Source of the DNA: Pseudorhodobacter sp. MZDSW-24AT | GTDB lineage: Bacteria > Pseudomonadota > Alphaproteobacteria > Rhodobacterales > Rhodobacteraceae | DNA length: 64,000 nt | NCBI RefSeq assembly: GCF_002794355.1 | Contig: NZ_PGOI01000013.1 | Coordinates: forward strand, 62,001 to 126,000 | Direction of reading: 5' to 3' | Shown: piece after piece, positions 26,045 to 35,692 of the stretch | How positions within the stretch are numbered: position 1 is the stretch's first letter | How the letters are laid out: every line of letters begins with the position of its first letter | Made by a program: the position numbers and the translations under genes | The notes under the pieces: model-generated | Database searches by the model: none | What the model saw: the letters and a program-made list of their open reading frames with translations, nothing else | What the model was told of the DNA's origin: nothing

Positions 26045-27121
26045 TCAGGCCGCCGCCGCATGCCGCAGGATGGCCACCTCGGAAGACGAAAGGTTGCGCC
26101 GCGCGTAATCGCCATAGCGCGCCGGGTTGACCGCGATGTCCGGCAGGATCGCCAGCAGGCGGTCCCGCTGCGACGCCTCGATCGTGTCAAGCGCGGTGTT
26201 CGCGGGGTGAAAGCTTTCGGTTTCCATTCCATTGGCCCAGACGATGTTGTGCCGGTCCAAAAGGATGTGGATATAGGTCACTTCGCGCAGCGCATGATCC
26301 ACGCAGATGGTGCGGTCGTTCAGCAGATCCTCGGCCTTCACCAGCACCTCTTCCGTGTTGAACAAGGCGCGCGCAGCCGGCCCACTCAACACCATCCGGT
26401 GCTGCGGCGACACCACAAGATCGGCCTCTGGCCGGTCCAAACCCAGCGCACCCGCCTTGAAGCGCACAGGCCGCAGATGCGGCATCGCGTAAAGCCGCGC
26501 CCCGCTCATCCGGCGGCTGCCGGTCCAGCGAATGGCCTGCGCGCCATTGTCTTTGGTCAGGATGCGGTCGCCGGGCCGCAGATCCTGAATCAGCCGCGCG
26601 CCGCCGGGGGTGGCGATCCGGGTGTCGGGCGTAAAGCAGATCACCCCGCCCGCCCCCTTCGCTCCGGCGCCCGAAGGGGTGCAAGGCACCGCCATGCGGA
26701 CCACCCACAGGTCCTGACCGGGCGGCGGCAGGTCGCCCACGAACATCAACAGATGCGCGCCCGTATCGGGCACAGGCAAAATCGTCACCGACCAGCTTTG
26801 ATGCCCATCCGTCACGATGAAGCCCTGATCGGGGGTGTCGTCTTCCTCTTCCTGTGATGCCGCCTTGGGGTCTGGCGTCGCGCCCGCCACCGCCACACCA
26901 ATCAGACGGCGCACCATCCGCGCCGCACGCCTGCGCATGTCCGCAACCCCGTCGGCCCCCTCCAGCAGAAGACACCCGCCCTGACCATCCACCTGCACGG
27001 GTCTGCCCGTCCAGCGCCACGAGGCGCCAACGGCCAGCACATCCAGCGGCGCGGCACTCAGGCCGTCAATTTCTGTCTGAGACCAGGAAATCACGAACGT
27101 GCCTTTCCGGCCCGTTCCCAT
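26045..27121 (-). CDS. Hint-domain (hedgehog/intein-type) protein
   Basis: A 358-residue protein. Residues about 10-165 form an unrecognised N-terminal region with an acidic EEEDD stretch. A Hint module follows, starting at CFTPDTRIATPGG and continuing with LRPGDRILTKDNG, IRWTGSR, and VVSPQHRMVLSGP. The first Cys and the SPQHR motif are the self-cleaving chemistry residues of Hint domains. The Hint_2 form in Rhodobacteraceae is usually at the C-terminus of secreted proteins; here no signal peptide is evident. There is no C-extein, so whether it cleaves is unknown. Confidence 0.8.
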   Translation of the reverse strand: MGTGRKGTFVISWSQTEIDGLSAAPLDVLAVGASWRWTGRPVQVDGQGGCLLLEGADGVADMRRRAARMVRRLIGVAVAGATPDPKAASQEEEDDTPDQGFIVTDGHQSWSVTILPVPDTGAHLLMFVGDLPPPGQDLWVVRMAVPCTPSGAGAKGAGGVICFTPDTRIATPGGARLIQDLRPGDRILTKDNGAQAIRWTGSRRMSGARLYAMPHLRPVRFKAGALGLDRPEADLVVSPQHRMVLSGPAARALFNTEEVLVKAEDLLNDRTICVDHALREVTYIHILLDRHNIVWANGMETESFHPANTALDTIEASQRDRLLAILPDIAVNPARYGDYARRNLSSSEVAILRHAAAA

Positions 27122-27300: not shown

Positions 27301-28311
27301 CTACTTGCCAAAATGCGAGAATCGATAGGGAGAAACCCCGTATTTCACCCGGAAAGACTTGGAAAAATGCGAGCTGCTGGCATAGCCGCAGGCAATCGCC
27401 ACTTCGGTCACACTCATGTCGGTTTCCGCCAATAGCGCACGCCCGTGTTGCAGGCGCAGATCATTCATATAGCGCACCGGGGTCACCCCCATGTAACGGC
27501 TGAACAACCGCTCGATCTGTCGGCGCGACAGGTGCAGTTGCGCGGCGCAGGCATCCAGATCAAAGGGCTCCTCGATCCGCGCCTCCAGAAAGGCCACGGC
27601 CTCGATCAGCTTCTCATGCCGGGTGCCCAGACGCGCGGCCAGCGAGGTCATCTGCTCATCCCCCTGCCGTCGGCGCTGGGTCAGAAGGCACATGTTCATC
27701 ACCTCTTGGCTCAGCGCAATGCCAAACCGCTCGTGGATGATCTCCAGCATCAGATCCGCCGCCGCCACCCCACCCGCGCAGGTCACGATCCGCTCATCCA
27801 CGCAAAACACCTGCCGCGCCGCGACAAGATCGGGGTAGGTCTCGCTGAACCCGGTCAGGTTCTCCCAATGCAGGGTGAACCGCCGCCCTTTCAGAATGCC
27901 GGCCCGCGCCAGCGCATAGGCCCCGGTGCACAGCCCTCCCACCACGCGCCCGCGTCGCCAAAGCCCGCGCAGCCAATCGGCCAGCGCCGCGCTCGCCTGC
28001 TGCTCGGGCTCCACCCCGGAACAGACCAGCACGATCCCTTCGGGCTGCGCTGCGCCAAAGGCGCCGTCCACCATCACCGGCACCCCGTTCGAGCAGGTGA
28101 CCGGACGCCCATCCTCCGACAGCACATCCCAGCGAAACAGCGCCTGTCCGGTCAGCTGATTGGCAATGCGCAAAGGCTCGATGGCCGAGGCAAAGGCCAG
28201 CATGGTGAATTTCGGCAGCAAGACAAAGCTTACCGCCACCGGGCTGGCCACGGCGGGCAGTTCCACATGGGCCACACCCTTGGCGATGTATCGCGCCGCG
28301 TTCTCGCTCAT
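27301..28311 (-). CDS. GlxA family transcriptional regulator (DJ-1/PfpI plus AraC HTH)
   Basis: A 336-residue regulator. The N-terminal DJ-1/PfpI-like domain (about residues 25-190) contains the nucleophile-elbow-like GGLCTGAYALARAG. The C-terminal AraC DNA-binding domain (about 230-330) has LDACAAQLHLSRRQIERLF and the second helix-turn-helix SVTEVAIACGYASSSHFSKSF. Such proteins often control arginine, choline or carnitine catabolism; no target can be assigned here. It is divergent to the GNAT-like gene at 28485 with 173 bp between, so control of that gene is possible. Confidence 0.9.
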   Translation of the reverse strand: MSENAARYIAKGVAHVELPAVASPVAVSFVLLPKFTMLAFASAIEPLRIANQLTGQALFRWDVLSEDGRPVTCSNGVPVMVDGAFGAAQPEGIVLVCSGVEPEQQASAALADWLRGLWRRGRVVGGLCTGAYALARAGILKGRRFTLHWENLTGFSETYPDLVAARQVFCVDERIVTCAGGVAAADLMLEIIHERFGIALSQEVMNMCLLTQRRRQGDEQMTSLAARLGTRHEKLIEAVAFLEARIEEPFDLDACAAQLHLSRRQIERLFSRYMGVTPVRYMNDLRLQHGRALLAETDMSVTEVAIACGYASSSHFSKSFRVKYGVSPYRFSHFGK

Positions 28312-28484
28312 TCACCAGCCCCCTCAGACTGCCGCCTTCTGCCACCAGTCCGCAGCATAAGCCATATCCCGAAAGGCGTGCGCAGGAAATCACCTGCCTC
28401 CGCCCGCCTTCCCCTCCGCCGTCCCCTGCGCCTTGCGCGCAAGGCAGTTGTGCCCCCCCTCCCCCTGTGGCACCACAGCGGGGC

Positions 28485-29555
28485 ATGTGCCCTTCGCCCG
28501 CCCACGCCTTTCGCACGCTCTGGACCGACGGCAGCACCGCGCTCGTCGCCAATCTGCACGCGCGGCTTGACCGCACACAGACCATGGGCGCTGATCTGCC
28601 CGTCACCCTGTCGGATGCCGCGCAGCGACCCAATTGCTACCTGTGCCGTCCCTCCACCGCCTATATCGACTATGGCATCGAGGAAACGCGCCACTTCACC
28701 CGCATGCCGCTGCTGCGCGCCGCGCTGACGGGCCTGCTTGGCAGCGCCGCCCCGTTGTTGCGGGCCAGCGGTCTCGACCATCAGGCCCAGATCAACAACT
28801 GGCTTTTGGCCACCAACCCGCCACCACCGCCCGGCATCCGTGCTGCGATGCACGATCTGGCCCGGCGCCACCCCGACCGCGTTATTGTCCTGCGCTCGCT
28901 GAACGATGCCACCGATGCCCCGCTGCTGGCCGAGTTGCAGGCGGCCGGGTTCGCCCTCTTGCCCGCACGTCAGGTCTGGATCTGGCATCCCGGCCCCGGC
29001 CCCATCCCGCGCGACCGACGCCGCGACGCGGCGCTTTTGGCCGACGGCCGGTTCACCCTGTTGCCCGGCGCCGCCTTCACCCAAGCGCAGTTCGCCACCG
29101 CCGCCGCCCTTTATGCGCAGCTTTATCTGCAAAAATACACGCCCTTGAACCCGCACTACACCCCCGCCTTCCTGCGCGGGATGGCGCAGACAGGGCTGAT
29201 GCGCCTCACGGGGCTGCGCGCAGGCGACCAGCTTCTGGGCGTCATCGGCACGGTCGCGCTGGGGGGCATGCTCACCGCCCCGGTCGTCGGCTACCGCACC
29301 GATCTGCCGCAATCCCTCGGCCTTTACCGCCGCCTCCTCGCCCTCGCCATGGCCGAGGCCGAAGCCGCCCGCATCCCGTTCCACATGTCGGCCGGGGCCG
29401 CCAGCTTCAAACGCAACCGCGGCGCAAGGCCCGCGATCGAATACACCGCCGCCCTCGTCTCGCATCTGCCGCGCCGCAACCGGATCGCCACCGCCGCGCT
29501 GGCCAGCCTGCTCACCCGCATCGGCGTGCCGGTGATGCGCCGATACGGGCTTTAG
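28485..29555 (+). CDS. GNAT-like N-acyltransferase fold protein beside the KAS III operon
   Basis: A protein of about 356 residues with no strong motif of a named enzyme. The C-terminal half looks like an acyl-CoA N-acyltransferase: GLRAGDQLLGVIGTVALGG, PVVGYRTDLPQSLGLYRRL, and SAGAASFKRNRGARPAIEYTA, cited in short form as SAGAASFKRNRG. This resembles FemAB/GNAT-type proteins and is only a fold-level guess. The start is uncertain: ATG 28485 (MCPSPAHAF) or an in-frame GTG at 28467. Its TAG overlaps the TAA of the convergent ATP-grasp gene, and it may belong to the same pathway. Confidence 0.65.
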   Translation: MCPSPAHAFRTLWTDGSTALVANLHARLDRTQTMGADLPVTLSDAAQRPNCYLCRPSTAYIDYGIEETRHFTRMPLLRAALTGLLGSAAPLLRASGLDHQAQINNWLLATNPPPPPGIRAAMHDLARRHPDRVIVLRSLNDATDAPLLAELQAAGFALLPARQVWIWHPGPGPIPRDRRRDAALLADGRFTLLPGAAFTQAQFATAAALYAQLYLQKYTPLNPHYTPAFLRGMAQTGLMRLTGLRAGDQLLGVIGTVALGGMLTAPVVGYRTDLPQSLGLYRRLLALAMAEAEAARIPFHMSAGAASFKRNRGARPAIEYTAALVSHLPRRNRIATAALASLLTRIGVPVMRRYGL

Positions 29556-30682
29556 CCATTCCACTCGATATCCGCGGTCGAGGCCGCCTGCAGCCCTTGC
29601 CTTCGGCGCAGGGCAATCGCGCCGATCTCGGCCACCGCGCGCAGCTGCGCGGCCACGCCCACCCGCGCGCCGCCCCAGACCAGCGCCTCTTCGGCCCGCG
29701 CCAGATCGGCCCGGAAGGCGCCAAAGCGCCCGCGCGCGCCCCAAGCGCCATACAGCCACATCGCCAAGCGCACGCATTGCGGGCCTCGCGCATCGGGCAG
29801 CACCAGCGGCCCGCCGCCCTCAAGCGCTGCCACCAAAGCGCCCGGCGCGCGCAACAGATGCAGCCCGCTGGTCGCGCGCGGATTGCACTCGATCGGCGCC
29901 AGCCCCGCTTCCGTCTCGATCAGGTCGAAAGACAGCTGGCCGCTCCACCCCGTCGCTTGCGCAAAGGCGCGCACGAAACGCAGCGCCGGACCGGGATCGA
30001 CCGGCTGAAAATAGATCCCCGCCCCCCGTCCCGCGCGATAAAGCGGGTGATACACCGCCAGCGCCGTGACCTCCCCCTCCACCGCAATCGCATAGGCACA
30101 GATCTCGCGCCCGGGCAGAAACGCCTGCGCCACCCAAGGCGCCTGCGCCGTTGGCCGCAGCCGCGCCACCTGCGCCGCACTGGGCCGCAGCAGCGTGCGG
30201 GTGGCAAAGCGCGAAAACACCGGCTTCAGCACCAGCCCTGCCGGATCGGGCAATCCTTCCAGATCCGCTTGCGTGCTCAGCCGCCACGTCTGCGGCACAT
30301 GCGGCCAGAATCCGGCACAGAGCGCGATGAACGCCGCCTTGTCATGCGCCTGCGCCAGCACAGGAAAAGGCGGCGCCAGCACCCGCACCCCTGCCGCCGC
30401 CAGATCGGGGGCAATCTGCGCCAGCCAGAGCACCTCTTCGCAGGTTGGCACGATCTGCCCGATCCCGTGCTCCGCACACAGCCGCAGCAGATCGCGCCGA
30501 AACCCGTCCAGATCAAAGGCGGGCGGCGCATGGCGCAAATAACCCGCCGCGAAACCGCGCCCGATGGGCCAGCGCAAACTGTCGGCCAGATGCACAGGCC
30601 GCCCCGCCGCGCGCAGGGCCCAAGCCCAGTGCAGCGCCACCGGTGCCCGTGCGCCCGTCACCAGCACCGCCTCAGCCGCCAT
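29552..30682 (-). CDS. ATP-grasp ligase
   Basis: A 376-residue ATP-grasp protein. It starts with a pre-ATP-grasp domain (VLVTGARAPVALHWA, VPTCEEVLWLA), then the ATP-binding lobe (GLVLKPVFSRFATRTLL) and the metal-binding IECNPRATSG near residue 260. ATP-grasp enzymes join a carboxylate to an amine or thiol through an acyl phosphate. The substrates are unknown. Its ATG overlaps the end of the adenylate-forming enzyme gene by 11 bases, making it the last gene of a five-gene operon. Its own stop overlaps the convergent GNAT-like gene. Confidence 0.82.
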   Translation of the reverse strand: MAAEAVLVTGARAPVALHWAWALRAAGRPVHLADSLRWPIGRGFAAGYLRHAPPAFDLDGFRRDLLRLCAEHGIGQIVPTCEEVLWLAQIAPDLAAAGVRVLAPPFPVLAQAHDKAAFIALCAGFWPHVPQTWRLSTQADLEGLPDPAGLVLKPVFSRFATRTLLRPSAAQVARLRPTAQAPWVAQAFLPGREICAYAIAVEGEVTALAVYHPLYRAGRGAGIYFQPVDPGPALRFVRAFAQATGWSGQLSFDLIETEAGLAPIECNPRATSGLHLLRAPGALVAALEGGGPLVLPDARGPQCVRLAMWLYGAWGARGRFGAFRADLARAEEALVWGGARVGVAAQLRAVAEIGAIALRRRQGLQAASTADIEWNG

Positions 30683-31883
30683 CCAGCGCCACCCGCACCC
30701 GGCGCAGCTTGCGCGCATCGCTCTGCAACGGGGCCATCTCCCCCACCACCGCCACCTCCAGGCCGCGCGCCGCAAACAGCGCCCGCAAGGCCGCCAGCGC
30801 CGCCGCCATCCCCGTCTCATCGGCCAGCGTCAGCACCACGATGCTCGCGCCCCTCTGCTCCAGCCGGAAATCGGTGATCCCCCGGTCCGCATCCAGCACC
30901 GCATTGCGCAGCACATCGGGTGTGATCCACACCGCACCAAAGCGGAACACGTCATCTGCCCGCCCCACCACTTCATCCACGGCCTGCAACGGGCTGCCAC
31001 AGGCGCAAGGCCGCTCGGACAAGCGCAGCAAGTCATTCATGCGGTAGCGCGCCAAAATCTGCGTGCGCCGGGTAAAGCTGCTGACAATGGGCGAGACCAG
31101 ATCCCCCACCGGCTCGAACTCGAAGCGGACCACATCCTCGGCCAGATGCAACACCCCCTGCGCGCAGCTCACCCCCAGCAGGCCTTCGGTCGCCATATAG
31201 ATCTGCCCCAAAGGCACCCCGAACCCCGCCTCGATCGCCGCGCGGTCGGGCGGGTCCAGCGTCTCCGCAGCCGAAAACACCCGCTCTGGCCGCAGCCGCG
31301 CTTGCCCGGCCAGCCAGACCAGCACCTTGGGCGGTGCCACGATCACGGTCGGCTGCTCCAGCCGCAAATCCTCCAGCCAGCTGCTCCAGTCGCGGTTCAG
31401 GTCATAGAAGGAAAGCCGCAGCATGCGGCTTTGCCCCGCGCTGTCATACAGCGCGGTGTGCAGCGGCAGGATCACCGCCACCCGATGCCGCCGCCGCCAC
31501 ACATCCGGCAAGGCCTTGGCCAGCATCACCCCCAGCCATTGAAAGCGCTCGGCCTCGGAAATCACGAACAGGCCCCGGTTGCCACTGGTGCCAGTGCTGG
31601 CCCCCACCGTCAGCCCGTCGATCTGCCGCGATCCCGCAAAGGCCGCCCACCCCTGCTCTGCGGTAATCCCCGCCCGGTTGAAGGCGGCGAATGCCGCCAT
31701 CAGCTCTGCCTTGCCCAAGACCGGCAGATCGGCCCGCCCGGCATAAAACGGCACCCCCGGCACGTCGCGCCGCAGCCAGCGGGCAAAGGCCCGCTCCTGC
31801 CAGCGCAGAAACGCCGCCCGCGACCGCCGCCGCGACACCCAGCGCGTGCGCACAAAGGCCATCAGCGCCCGCATCCGCCGCAT
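30672..31883 (-). CDS. F390 synthetase-like adenylate-forming enzyme
   Basis: A 403-residue member of the ANL (acyl/aryl-CoA ligase, phenylacetate-CoA ligase/F390 synthetase) group. It has the phosphate-binding loop ASTGTSG at about 95-101, the YMATEG motif at 229-234, RYRMNDLL at 279-286, and a CACGSP segment at 293-298 that may bind metal. The N-terminal helical RTRWVSRRRSRAAFLRWQ is typical of the TIGR02304-like subgroup. It probably activates a carboxylate as acyl-AMP. The ATG at 31883 shares its last base context with the MBL gene's TGA (TGATG). Confidence 0.8.
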   Translation of the reverse strand: MRRMRALMAFVRTRWVSRRRSRAAFLRWQERAFARWLRRDVPGVPFYAGRADLPVLGKAELMAAFAAFNRAGITAEQGWAAFAGSRQIDGLTVGASTGTSGNRGLFVISEAERFQWLGVMLAKALPDVWRRRHRVAVILPLHTALYDSAGQSRMLRLSFYDLNRDWSSWLEDLRLEQPTVIVAPPKVLVWLAGQARLRPERVFSAAETLDPPDRAAIEAGFGVPLGQIYMATEGLLGVSCAQGVLHLAEDVVRFEFEPVGDLVSPIVSSFTRRTQILARYRMNDLLRLSERPCACGSPLQAVDEVVGRADDVFRFGAVWITPDVLRNAVLDADRGITDFRLEQRGASIVVLTLADETGMAAALAALRALFAARGLEVAVVGEMAPLQSDARKLRRVRVALDGG

Positions 31884-32704
31884 CACAGCGCCTCGGTCTG
31901 GGGCAGATCCCACGCGCAGGGCTCCGGGTCATGGCACAGCACCACCTGCCCGCCCGCCGCCTGCCATGCTGCCACCCGCGCCGCACTGCGCGCCGCCGCC
32001 GCCCGGTCTTCCAGCACCAGCCGCAAGGGCAGGCCCGGCGCCGTCTCGGGCAACAGCCCCTCCCGCAGCCATGCCGCATCGCAGGCATAGAGCAGCCCCG
32101 CCCCCGGAAAGGCCAACCCAAAATGCCCTGCCGCATGGCCGGGCAGATCCACCGCCACACAAGATCCGTCGCCAAACAGATCGGCCCCTTTGCCCAACCC
32201 ATGGGGCAGCGCCACGTGCGGCAGGCCCGTCACACAGGTCAGCCGCGCCTCCACCCCCTGCGGGATCAGCCCCGGGAAAACCCCGTGCCGCAGGTTCGCA
32301 AGCTTTCCTGCCGCCCGGATCTGTGTCAGCGCTGGCCCATGCGCCACGATCCGCGCCCTCGGAAACGCGTCCAGCCGCGCCACATGATCGGCGTGGAAAT
32401 GCGTGACAATCACCCCAGCCACATCGCGTGGATGCAGTCCCCTCTGCGCCAGCACCGCCTCCGGCGCCCCTTCCGCGCTCAGCCGATACCGCAAGGCCCC
32501 CGCATAAGCCCGCAGCGCCAGCCCCCGACCCTGCGCGCTCACCGCCTGCGGCCCGATCCCGGTGTCCACCAGCCACAGCCCCTGCTCGGGATGGCGCAGC
32601 ACGCCATAGCGCACCCGCAGATCGCGCCAGCGCCACGCGCCCCCCCGGCGCAGCACCGCTTCGGGCGCGGGCACAAAACCGCTGTTGGCAAAGGAAATCT
32701 CCAT
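31883..32704 (-). CDS. MBL-fold metallo-hydrolase
   Basis: A 273-residue metallo-beta-lactamase-fold enzyme. The metal motif is THFHADH (H102, H104, D106, H107), with H190 in DLPGHAAGH, D209 in YACDAAW and a final His in VVLCHDP, a complete two-metal site. It resembles lactonase/quorum-quenching-like MBL hydrolases in layout, so it could open a lactone or hydrolyse a thioester. It is the third gene of the KAS III operon; its start overlaps the SDR stop (TGATG). Confidence 0.85.
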   Translation of the reverse strand: MEISFANSGFVPAPEAVLRRGGAWRWRDLRVRYGVLRHPEQGLWLVDTGIGPQAVSAQGRGLALRAYAGALRYRLSAEGAPEAVLAQRGLHPRDVAGVIVTHFHADHVARLDAFPRARIVAHGPALTQIRAAGKLANLRHGVFPGLIPQGVEARLTCVTGLPHVALPHGLGKGADLFGDGSCVAVDLPGHAAGHFGLAFPGAGLLYACDAAWLREGLLPETAPGLPLRLVLEDRAAAARSAARVAAWQAAGGQVVLCHDPEPCAWDLPQTEAL

Positions 32705-33651
32705 CACGCCTCCCCGACAAAGGTGCGGCGCAGGCCGTCTTCGAACCCCACCACGGGCCGCCAGCCCAAAACGCGCGCCGCGCGGCCAATGTCCAGCGTC
32801 TGCGTATAGGCAAACTGCCCCACGCCAAAGCGGGTCACGCGCGGCTCGCGGCCCGTCACCGCGCCTTGCCACTCCAGCGCCCGCGCTGCCGCCATCACCA
32901 GCGGCACCGGCAGCGCCCGCCAACGCGGCACCACCCCCACCTTGGCCGCCACCGCCGCCACCACGCTCTGGATCGGCAACGCCACCCCGCCCGAGATATG
33001 AAAGATCCCGCCCGCGTCACAGCCCAGCGCCGCGCGAATGGCCGCCACCACATCCGCCACATGCGTCAGATCGGTCGCCGCCTGCCCGCCGCGCATCAAG
33101 GGCAACGGCCCCGCCTGCATCGCCCGCACCAGACGCGGCAGCAGCGCCCGGTCGCCCGCGCCATAAATCCCGCGCGGCCGCAACACCACCGCCCCCGCCG
33201 CCAAGGCCAAGGCTTCAGCCTCCGCCTTGGTCGCCGCATAGGCGTTCACCGGTGGCGGCAATGCCGCCTCCTCGCGCAGACCTCTCTGATCGGCAAAGCG
33301 AAAACACACCGACGGGGTCGAGATATGCACCACCCGCACGCCCCCCAGCCGCCGCGCCACCTCTAGCACCGTCCGTGTGGCCTCGACATTGCAGCGCCGG
33401 AACGCCGCCATCCCGCCCCAAGGCGCCGACAGCGCCGCCGCATGCACGATCCCCGTCACCCCCTCCCGCGCCGCCGCCGCTGTCAGCTCCTCCACCGCCC
33501 CCGGCGCGCCCAGATCCAACGACAGCAAGCCCCGCGCCGCGCAGATCTGCGCATCCCGGCCCGTGGCCAGCACCGCCTGCCCTTCGGCCCGCAGCGCGCG
33601 CAACACAGCGCCCCCCAGAAAGCCCGAGGCCCCCGTGATCAGAACCGCCAT
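32704..33651 (-). CDS. Extended SDR (NAD(P)-dependent epimerase/3beta-HSD-like)
   Basis: A 315-residue extended short-chain dehydrogenase/reductase. The nucleotide-binding GASGFLG begins at residue 7. The catalytic Tyr and Lys are Y138 and K142 in YAATK, with S111 upstream in HISTPSV. A C-terminal helical portion is typical of the 3beta-HSD/epimerase group that includes OleD. It likely reduces the beta-keto product of the condensing enzyme encoded immediately upstream, but that is inferred. Its ATG directly abuts the KAS III TAG. Confidence 0.86.
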   Translation of the reverse strand: MAVLITGASGFLGGAVLRALRAEGQAVLATGRDAQICAARGLLSLDLGAPGAVEELTAAAAREGVTGIVHAAALSAPWGGMAAFRRCNVEATRTVLEVARRLGGVRVVHISTPSVCFRFADQRGLREEAALPPPVNAYAATKAEAEALALAAGAVVLRPRGIYGAGDRALLPRLVRAMQAGPLPLMRGGQAATDLTHVADVVAAIRAALGCDAGGIFHISGGVALPIQSVVAAVAAKVGVVPRWRALPVPLVMAAARALEWQGAVTGREPRVTRFGVGQFAYTQTLDIGRAARVLGWRPVVGFEDGLRRTFVGEA

Positions 33652-34626
33652 CTAGACATCCATCACCACACCGCCAAACGACACCCCGGCCGAGGTGCCC
33701 AGCATCATCACCCGCGCCCCCGCAGGCAGCTGCCCCGCACGCCGCGCATGGTCCAGCGCGAAGGGAATCGAGGCCGCAATCTGATTGCCCACCTGCCCCG
33801 CAATATCCACCACCCGCGCGGCATCAAAGCCGCACAGCCGGATCATGTGCTGCAAGGCACCGGGGCTCGCCTGATGCGGCACCACCAGATCAATCTCCGC
33901 GCGGTCAACCCCCGCCTCGGCCAGCACCTCCTCGACAAAGCCACCAAAATGCTGCGCCGTCAGCCGAAACAACGCCCGCCCATCCATCGCAAACAGCGCA
34001 TGCGCCTCAAAGGCCGCCCGCTCTTGCGCAAAATCAAACCGCGTGCCTCCGGCGCCAATCTCGCAGGCGCCATAGCCCGAGGGATAGCTGCGAAACCGCG
34101 CCGCCCGCAGCTTGCCGCCGCCCCGCCCCAGCACCGCCGCCGCCGCGCCATCGCCAAACAGCGCCGCCACCTCCGGCTGCGTCGCCCAAGGCAGCGCGCG
34201 CGAGGCCACTTCGGCCGAAACGATCAAGGCCCGCGCATAGCGCCCGCTGTGCAACAGCCCGTCCACCACCTCAAGCGCGCTCAGGAAAGACAGGCAAGTG
34301 CTGTTCAGGTCAAAGGTCGCCACCGCCCCATCCGCCAGCCCCAGCCCGCGCTGGATCAAGGGCGCGGTCGATGGCAGCGTCTGATAGCCGATCCCACAGG
34401 CCGAAACGACCAGATCCAGCGCCCCGGCGTCCAGCCCCGCATCCGCCAGCGCCGCGCGCGCCGCCTGCACCGCCAGATCCACCTGCGTGCCTCGCGTCAT
34501 CACATGCCGACGGGCCACCCCGCTCGCCGCCAGCGTCCAGCCCGCCGCCCGGCCCAAGCGTGCGTCAATCTCCTCCGCCGTCAAAACGGTTTCCGGCAGC
34601 GCTGATCCCGTCCCGATGATCCGCAT
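33652..34626 (-). CDS. KAS III-like (FabH/OleA-type) condensing enzyme
   Basis: A 324-residue thiolase-fold enzyme that would perform a Claisen condensation on acyl-thioesters. The full triad is present: C111 in LNSTCLSFL, H251 in VPHQASPG and N281 in VGNQIAASIP. The overall length fits FabH-type enzymes, but the N-terminal SGVARRH segment and specialist location argue against a housekeeping FabH. No acyl carrier protein gene is nearby, so CoA thioesters are possible substrates. GGGGAGG precedes the ATG at 34626. It is the first gene of the five-gene operon and is divergent to a sugar-kinase gene. Confidence 0.87.
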   Translation of the reverse strand: MRIIGTGSALPETVLTAEEIDARLGRAAGWTLAASGVARRHVMTRGTQVDLAVQAARAALADAGLDAGALDLVVSACGIGYQTLPSTAPLIQRGLGLADGAVATFDLNSTCLSFLSALEVVDGLLHSGRYARALIVSAEVASRALPWATQPEVAALFGDGAAAAVLGRGGGKLRAARFRSYPSGYGACEIGAGGTRFDFAQERAAFEAHALFAMDGRALFRLTAQHFGGFVEEVLAEAGVDRAEIDLVVPHQASPGALQHMIRLCGFDAARVVDIAGQVGNQIAASIPFALDHARRAGQLPAGARVMMLGTSAGVSFGGVVMDV

Positions 34627-34658
34627 CCCGCCGCCTCCCCGCCGCCTGCCTGCCCCCC

Positions 34659-34687
34659 GTCATAGCCCCAACCCGCCCCAGCCTCAA
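34659..34687 (-). promoter_or_regulatory. Candidate promoter for the KAS III operon
   Basis: TTGAGG (34687-34682) and TATGAC (34664-34659) are 17 bp apart on the minus strand. Transcription would start about 26 bases before the KAS III ATG. A second TTGAGG lies 12 bp upstream in a short tandem repeat (CCTCAATCGCGG-like units). Confidence 0.4.
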
Positions 34688-34783
34688 TCGCGGCCTCAAT
34701 CGCCGCCGCAGTGCCACGCCCGGTTGCAGCCCCCCGGCCCCTCGGCTACGGTCGCGCCGACCCGAAAAACAGGAGCCGCACCC

Positions 34784-35692
34784 ATGTCGAAATCCCTGCT
34801 CTGCCTTGGCGAATGCATGGTGGAACTGTCGCCCACCGCCACGGGCGATTATGCGCGGGGGTTTGCCGGCGACACTTTCAACACCGCGTGGTATGCGCGC
34901 CGCCTCCTGCCCGCCGACTGGTCGGTGGCCTATGGCTCCTGCATCGGCACCGATGCGATCTCAGAGGAAATGGCCGCCTTCATGGCGGGTGAAGGCATCG
35001 ACACCACGCCCCTGCGCCGCCTGCCCGACCGCACCGTCGGCCTTTACATGATCAGCCTGCGCAAGGGCGAACGCAGCTTTTCCTACTGGCGCGGCCAATC
35101 CGCCGCCAAGGCGCTCGCCGATGATCCCGTCTGGCTCGCCAGCATCCTGCGCGGCCGCAGCGTGATCCATTTCTCCGCCATCACCCTCGCGATTCTCGGC
35201 CCCGACCAACGCCACGCCTTCTGCGCCGCTCTGGCGCAGGCCCGCGCCGAGGGCAGCCTGATTGCCTTCGACACCAACCTGCGCCCGCGCCTGTGGGAAG
35301 GGCCCGAGGCGATGCGCGCAGGCGTCCTCCTCGGCGCGTCGGTGGCCGATATTGTCCTGCCGTCCTTTGACGAAGAAACCGGCCTCTGGGGCGATCAAAG
35401 CCCCGCCGAGACCATCGCGCGCTACCAAAAGGCCGGGGCCGCCCGCGTGGTGGTCAAGGATGGCGGCGGCCCGGTCACCCTCTGGTCGGCGGCCCATGGC
35501 AGCCGCCAGCACGCCGCCACTCCGGTGGCCCAGATCGTCGACACCACCGCCGCAGGCGACAGCTTCGCCGGAACCTTCCTGGCCCATCTCGCCCAAGGCG
35601 CCACCGAGGATGAGGCCGCCCAAAAGGCGATGGCCTTGGCCGCCCGCGTCATCCAGTCGCGCGGCGCCCTCGTGCCCAGCCTCTTCGCCTGA
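34784..35692 (+). CDS. PfkB-family sugar kinase (2-keto-3-deoxygluconate kinase-like)
   Basis: A 302-residue ribokinase-fold enzyme. GECMVELS starts the chain, FAGDTFNTAWYARRL is the N-terminal sugar-binding segment typical of KDG kinases, FDTNLRPRLW follows, and the catalytic DTTAAGDSFAG lies near residue 250. The likely reaction phosphorylates 2-keto-3-deoxygluconate, but other ketoacid sugars cannot be excluded. The ATG at 34784 has AGGAG at good spacing; the frame is open much further upstream but antisense to KAS III. Confidence 0.88.
   Translation: MSKSLLCLGECMVELSPTATGDYARGFAGDTFNTAWYARRLLPADWSVAYGSCIGTDAISEEMAAFMAGEGIDTTPLRRLPDRTVGLYMISLRKGERSFSYWRGQSAAKALADDPVWLASILRGRSVIHFSAITLAILGPDQRHAFCAALAQARAEGSLIAFDTNLRPRLWEGPEAMRAGVLLGASVADIVLPSFDEETGLWGDQSPAETIARYQKAGAARVVVKDGGGPVTLWSAAHGSRQHAATPVAQIVDTTAAGDSFAGTFLAHLAQGATEDEAAQKAMALAARVIQSRGALVPSLFA

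Follow-up and report, generated by a model that had tools for sequence, protein, structure and literature searches.

The window analysed here is a stretch of 64,000 nt of the 3.86-Mb genome of Pseudorhodobacter sp. MZDSW-24AT, and it contains a block of six genes that form one inherited unit. Four of these genes, coding for a KAS III-fold ketosynthase, an extended short-chain dehydrogenase/reductase (SDR), a metallo-beta-lactamase (MBL)-fold hydrolase and an F390 synthetase-related ligase, make up a core that is kept together in distant bacteria, while the genes accompanying it (the tail) are exchanged. We read the block as a modular lipid cassette in which the core would join two acyl chains, reduce and activate the product, and the tail would add a head group; we give this reading an even chance. 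A first-pass annotation of the window had pictured a small biosynthetic operon with a lipid-leaning role. The operon-like unit stands and its role is probably lipid-related, and the product may be of the amide or lactone type named there, but the cassette family has a much wider distribution than the word small implies. The features are the following:

33652–34626, minus strand: core gene 1, KAS III-fold ketosynthase, kin of MxnB/CorB, 324 amino acids, Cys111-His251-Asn281
32704–33651, minus strand: core gene 2, extended SDR, nearest NCBIfam model OleD (2-alkyl-3-oxoalkanoate reductase), below its cut-off
31883–32704, minus strand: core gene 3, MBL-fold hydrolase, nearest solved relatives lactonases
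30672–31883, minus strand: core gene 4, F390 synthetase-related (PaaK-like) adenylate-forming enzyme, kin of TIGR02304
29552–30682, minus strand: tail gene, ATP-grasp ligase, kin of PRK06849, 11-bp overlap with core gene 4
28485–29555, plus strand: tail gene, GNAT-fold protein (Acetyltransf_6), convergent to the other five
28348–34718, from homology comparison: the block missing in five relatives of the genus, with limits that are approximate

Gene order and inheritance of the block

All six open reading frames of the first-pass annotation are present, and the junctions of the five abutting or overlapping minus-strand genes are as it described. Read from the sequence, the KAS III stop codon TAG (33654–33652) is directly followed by the SDR ATG at 33651, the SDR TGA and the MBL ATG share position 32704, and the MBL TGA and the ATG of the F390-like ligase share position 31883. 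The ATP-grasp gene starts with the ATG at 30682 and shares 11 bp with the end of the ligase gene (30672). The stop codons of the ATP-grasp and GNAT genes overlap at 29552–29555, which confirms that the GNAT gene meets the others end to end; its start may be GTG 28467 or ATG 28485. Pfam assigned the KAS III, extended SDR, MBL-fold and Acetyltransf_6 GNAT families. The F390-like and ATP-grasp proteins passed no Pfam cut-off and were assigned by NCBIfam TIGR02304 and PRK06849, both below cut-off, and with this reservation the six families agree with the earlier assignment. The candidate promoter placed at 34659–34687 was not supported, as a sigma-70 consensus scan of 28200–34900, covering one promoter type, gave 0 sites (0.3 expected by chance).

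The block is present or absent as a whole in relatives of the same genus. An AraC-type regulator gene and a KDG-kinase-like gene flank it in the window's own genome and in G006, where they lie ~6.5 kb apart; in G001, G002, G004, G009 and G011, these two genes are only 142–263 bp apart. Local alignment places the extra block at ~28.35–34.72 kb (~6.35 kb), which holds the six genes and nothing else. Homology stops on the left at 28293–28369 and resumes on the right at 34712–34741, varying by relative. Thus, two relatives (G006 and G013) carry all six genes between the same two neighbours, and five lack exactly the block. Six other same-genus genomes were compared in which both neighbours were not seen together, and these are hence uninformative. 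As the empty sites lack all six genes together, the GNAT gene is part of the inherited unit despite its opposite strand, which extends the single unit proposed at first pass. All six genes are under purifying selection, with dN/dS (omega) of 0.18–0.31 against G006 and G013 and no stops.

In G013, the six genes stand in the same order at the same site, with a Rieske gene (L213:1562-2521) between the GNAT and ATP-grasp genes. The window and G006 have no Rieske gene there, and no Rieske homologue was found in the window's genome with a nearly identical query that does find one in G013. Hence, the Rieske gene was lost or gained within the genus.

Distribution of the core

We compared 93 loci, namely the window, 80 GTDB loci and 12 loci from a plasmid collection. 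The GTDB loci are the best 80 of 589 confirmed contig matches and lean to Alphaproteobacteria; the plasmid loci are 12 of the 54 records that matched in a tblastn search with the ligase, a search in which 12 records had at least 80% cover. The four-gene core is complete in 87 of the 93 loci, and five of the remaining six are cut by contig ends. It is complete in 75/80 GTDB loci (L048, L051, L072, L099 and L122 run off their contigs) and in 11/12 plasmid-collection loci, the latter from Rhizobium, Roseateles XES5, Paenibacillus, Pontibacillus, Paracoccus, Ketogulonicigenium, E. coli, Fusobacterium, Burkholderia, Paraburkholderia and Pseudomonas FeN3W. The core is thus found in at least three phyla (Pseudomonadota, Bacillota and Fusobacteriota). 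An objection foreseen in the first-pass annotation, that relatives might not keep the genes together, therefore fails. Where it treated all six genes as one set, ATP-grasp plus GNAT proves to be one of several interchangeable tails and not part of the invariant core.

At least 80% of the cassette is present in 671 of 5,426 complete E. coli genomes (~12%, about one in eight). E. coli ABU 83972 carries a seven-gene operon-like cluster (L125:5372-12253) between narI and tRNA-Tyr/purU, in which genes for PAP2, a fatty acid hydroxylase and a desaturase accompany the core. The order is SDR-MBL-F390-KAS, with KAS last, in Fusobacterium vincentii (L041:3180-10123). An even sample of the phylum searched with the KAS profile gave a cassette-type KAS in 7/249 genomes, the window's own included (351–460 bits; next score 274), and all seven have an OleD-model SDR match within ~1 kb. 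Across the class, a ligase search whose first pass scored at most 6 candidates per genome matched 3/289 genomes, the window's own and two weak matches (~154 bits); one of the two weak loci was inspected and lacks the rest of the core over 9 kb. Among 61 relatives, five have a strong ligase match (the window's own genome, G006, G013, G008 and G022). The cassette is patchy and accessory, yet conserved over great distances. A phage-borne origin was ruled against by the lack of any match to the E. coli KAS (E limit 1e-40) or ligase (1e-5) in 50,697 phage records.

Core enzymes

KAS III: C111, H251 and N281 are invariant in a ten-row alignment spanning two phyla. With the family profile, the solved relatives rank as MxnB (315 bits), CorB (305), the best FabH (266) and OleA (117). 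The predicted model (pLDDT 93.6) has its highest TM-score with MxnB (0.93–0.94, 1.8 Å) among the 50 Foldseek matches listed, in which CorB, BioZ and PqsD reach up to 0.91, FabH 0.87–0.90 and OleA 0.84–0.85. A small tree nests MxnB/CorB in the cassette KAS group (90/84 support) and leaves FabH (4 rows) and OleA outside. In a wider tree, built without a fragmentary OleA row, six FabH rows and the long-branch cassette rows L041 and L044, FabH (21 rows, 100/100) and OleA each form their own clade apart from all cassette rows. The OleA rows, which are thiolase genes beside OleD-model matches (two over cut-off, two at 383–396 bits) chosen without an OleA model, form a clade at 100/100 in both trees. 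The protein does not pass the FabH model TIGR00747 (180 bits, cut-off 292.1), and another KAS III in the window's genome is presumed to be its FabH. A FabH starter role by kinship was rejected on the 21-row clade and the TIGR00747 score. The KAS III thus lies outside FabH, and among characterised enzymes it is closest in sequence and fold to MxnB and CorB, which join chains.

PMC5724707 describes MxnB as condensing two beta-ketoacyl chains and as having two long tunnels, and PMC5724707 and PMC4901931 report that it joins two long chains in vitro. The cassette KAS III resembles these enzymes of myxopyronin and corallopyronin synthesis (31–32% identity, TM-score 0.91–0.94). They serve chains made by type I polyketide synthases (PKS), whereas the cassette unit has no PKS or carrier protein gene.

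SDR: S111, Y138 and K142 are invariant over the same breadth of ten rows and two phyla. The best NCBIfam match is an OleD-type model in the three cassettes compared, at 148 bits (147.9) for the window, 154 for E. coli (a Shewanella-type model) and 241 for Paenibacillus, all below the OleD equivalog cut-off of 580 bits. A separate observation concerns L167 (G121:C1:4879500-4890500), where an SDR reaches 302 bits with the cassette SDR profile and no cassette KAS, MBL or ligase lies nearby; it is possibly a separate OleD-like branch.

MBL: The HxHxDH motif, H190 and D209 are likewise invariant in ten rows from two phyla, so that the catalytic residues listed at first pass for KAS III, SDR and MBL are all borne out. 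A residue-pattern check in 62 loci missed the MBL motif in four and the SDR motif in two. On inspection, three of these four MBLs and both SDRs turned out to have the motif, differing in a filler residue, and the L098 MBL is still without a pattern match. The nearest solved kin are acyl-homoserine lactone (AHL) lactonases and pyridoxolactonase; the metal motif of AHL lactonases is present, but the score with the AttM model is 46.7 bits, below the cut-off of 390.

Ligase: The adenylation motifs are complete, and the catalytic residues are conserved in ten homologues that span two phyla. PaaK is the nearest solved kin (73 bits), Pfam AMP-binding matches only at E 0.016, and the protein matches TIGR02304 and PaaK-type models. 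For TIGR02304 (cut-off 251.9), the window scores 244.8, E. coli 755 and Paenibacillus 490 bits. The curated names TIGR02304, PRK07204 and PRK06849 match cassette members, with scores above cut-off for the KAS of Paenibacillus and for the ligases of Paenibacillus and E. coli; these names come without an assigned function, and the window's members stand just or well below the cut-offs. In PMC5467263 and PMC9823363, an F390 synthetase gene is named only in a table.

Tail genes

ATP-grasp: The window protein scores 271.6 bits with PRK06849 (cut-off 406), and its ECNPR region is conserved across six homologues.

GNAT: The predicted model (pLDDT 93.8) has A-PGS, MprF, L-PGS and FemX among its top Foldseek matches (E 3e-7 to 1.4e-6, probability 1.0), and the list is rich in the MprF synthase domain, FemX and other aminoacyl-tRNA-dependent transferases. 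As modelled, the protein may share the overall fold of MprF/FemX, with TM-scores of at most 0.50; it has no membrane domain and no sequence match in the PDB at E 0.1.

Profile searches near the ligase gave the following tails in the 93 loci, window included:

ATP-grasp + GNAT + Rieske: 53
ATP-grasp + GNAT without Rieske: 10, including the window
ATP-grasp only: 3
GT28 glycosyltransferase: 6, abutting or overlapping the ligase in 6/6
DUF3419: 9 (3 alone, 4 with Rieske, 1 with GNAT, 1 with GNAT + Rieske), within ~110 bp of the ligase in 5/9 and after the Rieske gene in the other 4
Sulfotransferase: 3, abutting the ligase in Ruegeria haliotis, upstream and divergent in Paracoccus and Ketogulonicigenium
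PAP2 + fatty acid hydroxylase + desaturase: 2

The two fatty acid hydroxylases have the ornithine-lipid hydroxylase OlsE as best model, at 56.7 and 66.6 bits (cut-off 475). By family, the tail genes are lipid-head enzymes or lipid hydroxylases.

Tails have changed repeatedly. On a tree of the concatenated core from 62 loci, a quick tree with SH-aLRT support only, the tail label changes at least 15 times, or at least 10 times when "none" is not counted (57 labelled rows). The 31 of 93 loci omitted are mostly Mesorhizobium near-copies and contig-edge loci, together with L037, L040 and L041. The cassettes of two metagenome-assembled genomes, L109 (Acidobacteriota) and L075 (Flavobacteriaceae), fall among alphaproteobacterial ones in this tree and hence are probably misbinned contigs; dropping both leaves the count of 10 unaffected. 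Exchange of tails beside a core that is kept is what one would expect if the tails act on one precursor made by the core.

Proposed pathway and alternatives

Working from the kinship of the enzymes, we suggest the following substrates, step order, product and head group. The KAS III-fold enzyme would load an acyl chain on its cysteine and join a second acyl or beta-ketoacyl thioester, as MxnB and CorB do, giving a branched (2-alkyl-3-keto) thioester or acid. The MBL enzyme would hydrolyse a thioester or lactone intermediate, and the OleD-like SDR would reduce the keto group to a hydroxyl. The F390-like enzyme would adenylate the carboxylate and pass it to an amine, an alcohol, a thiol or its own hydroxyl (beta-lactone). 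The outcome of the core would be a two-chain lipid with a free hydroxyl or an activated acid, to which the tail would attach a polar part. The window's ATP-grasp and GNAT-fold enzymes, the latter possibly using aminoacyl-tRNA like MprF, may supply a head made of an amino acid or resembling a peptide. Hydroxyls are the acceptors of glycosyl-, sulfo- and BtaA-type enzymes, and enzymes like MprF form an ester with the hydroxyl of a lipid, so that the free hydroxyl from the SDR would be the simplest shared acceptor.

Several observations weigh against this reading. No window protein reaches the cut-off of the NCBIfam model closest to it, and the GNAT protein matches none of these models, so function by homology is remote. 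Searched with the window KAS alone, MxnB scores 158.6, one FabH 154.7 and CorB 145.4 bits, and by Foldseek E-value, FabH entries lead and MxnB comes fourth. The wider tree leaves the clade of cassette rows plus MxnB/CorB unsettled (p-AU 0.43, where AU is the approximately unbiased test; 0.30 for cassette rows without MxnB/CorB). A C-L active-site motif is common to cassette KAS and OleA rows in an alignment without four duplicates. The GNAT model has TM-scores of 0.28–0.50, its top match is an uncharacterised GNAT, and acetyl-CoA GNATs match too. None of the searched tails is seen in 7/93 loci (L051 and L106 end there). The DUF3419 family includes BtaA, which puts a homoserine-type head on diacylglycerol, but the two DUF3419 proteins scanned with NCBIfam gave no match. 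Incomplete sets also occur. G008 (L171) has KAS, MBL and ligase without an SDR between; G022 (L170:6696-8135) has a lone F390-like ligase, the only one above the TIGR02304 cut-off among the 61 relatives, with no other core gene in 15 kb; and the Pseudomonas amygdali plasmid pMPPla107 (L037:7890-11478) has only the ligase and an ATP-grasp relative ~0.9 kb downstream, amid hypothetical proteins and with no KAS, SDR or MBL.

The Cys-His-Asn triad, complete in the KAS III, also suits decarboxylative condensation with malonyl-ACP (ACP, acyl carrier protein). Accordingly, the enzyme might instead condense one acyl thioester with malonyl-ACP or malonyl-CoA; the SDR would give a 3-hydroxyacyl thioester, the MBL would be a thioesterase, and the F390-like enzyme would re-activate the 3-hydroxy acid for amidation, ending in an N-(3-hydroxyacyl) amino acid or lipopeptide. 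The near kinship of FabH, which outranks CorB with the single window sequence, and the co-occurrence of ATP-grasp and GNAT in 63/93 loci agree with such a single-chain route. However, the FabH clade holds no cassette row, the genome has its presumed FabH elsewhere, and the SDR is kin to OleD rather than to ketoacyl-ACP reductase. We consider this route rather unlikely.

Still less probable, in our judgement, is a small diffusible lactone or pyrone acting as a signal or antibiotic, with the lactonase-like MBL serving turnover or self-protection. The lactonase kin of the MBL would suit it; MxnB and CorB make alpha-pyrones, according to PMC4901931 and PMC5724707, and PMC7064751 indicates that OleC-type adenylation can yield beta-lactones. 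Yet the MBL belongs to the conserved core, and glycosyltransferase, sulfotransferase, DUF3419 and hydroxylase/desaturase tails suit a membrane lipid better; transporters and receptors were not among the genes searched for.

A true Ole (olefin/beta-lactone) gene cluster is very improbable, for although the SDR resembles OleD and the order condense, reduce, adenylate agrees, the KAS stands outside the OleA rows, the ligase is of the TIGR02304/PaaK type, the hydrolase has the MBL fold and the SDR is far under the OleD cut-off (148 vs 580 bits). The cassette shares with OleABCD a condensation, an OleD-type keto reduction, an acid adenylation, a hydrolase and the lack of a PKS in the set. It differs in its MxnB/CorB-like rather than OleA-type KAS, in an F390/PaaK-like ligase, in an MBL that replaces OleB and in interchangeable head-group tails. 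Membership in OleABCD was rejected, as the unit has no OleA-type thiolase, its SDR is below the OleD cut-off, and its ligase and hydrolase are of other types than OleC and OleB.

The bacterial sphingolipid pathway yields a two-chain lipid with a hydroxyl, as the cassette would. It was ruled against, since none of the six genes codes for a serine palmitoyltransferase in Pfam and NCBIfam scans; the cassette lipid would instead gain its backbone by chain joining. Two cassettes have neighbours reminiscent of that pathway. The Fusobacterium cassette (L041) comes after a GT21 gene and a short-chain SDR, GT21 being a family that includes ceramide glucosyltransferases. The Paenibacillus cassette precedes an SDR with partial similarity to 3-ketodihydrosphingosine reductase (KdsR). 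This SDR is matched best by a general model (362 bits) and reaches 204.6 bits with the KdsR model (cut-off 400).

No description of the cassette was found among the papers listed from open-access PMC full texts, the search covering neither subscription papers nor preprints. Within that literature, no published pathway for this gene set was seen, and the first-pass annotation knew of no named product made by it.

Neighbouring genes

The regulator gene next to the block (27301–28311, divergent from the GNAT gene) codes for a GbdR-like AraC-family protein (317 bits, cut-off 480). As it is present in relatives without the cassette, it is not cassette-specific. At 26045–27121, the list of open reading frames contains a protein with a Hint/intein-like motif (CFTPDTRI...GDRIL).

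Implications

Taken further, the modular lipid cassette may define a new class of bacterial membrane lipid, a two-chain hydroxy acid joined by a C–C bond, made by a portable four-gene core and completed by interchangeable head genes. Such a lipid would be neither a glycerolipid nor a sphingolipid, and its heads would be of aminoacyl, glycosyl, sulfo, homoserine or hydroxyl type. This is a tentative proposal, which we rate somewhat below an even chance. If it is true, well-studied bacteria, among them ~12% of complete E. coli genomes, rhizobia and roseobacters, contain a lipid class that has escaped notice, and lineages differ in the head that they put on one backbone. In that case, the cassette KAS family might also be where the chain-joining ketosynthases of myxopyronin synthesis came from. 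Close relatives of the window's genome offer a natural empty site for the cassette.

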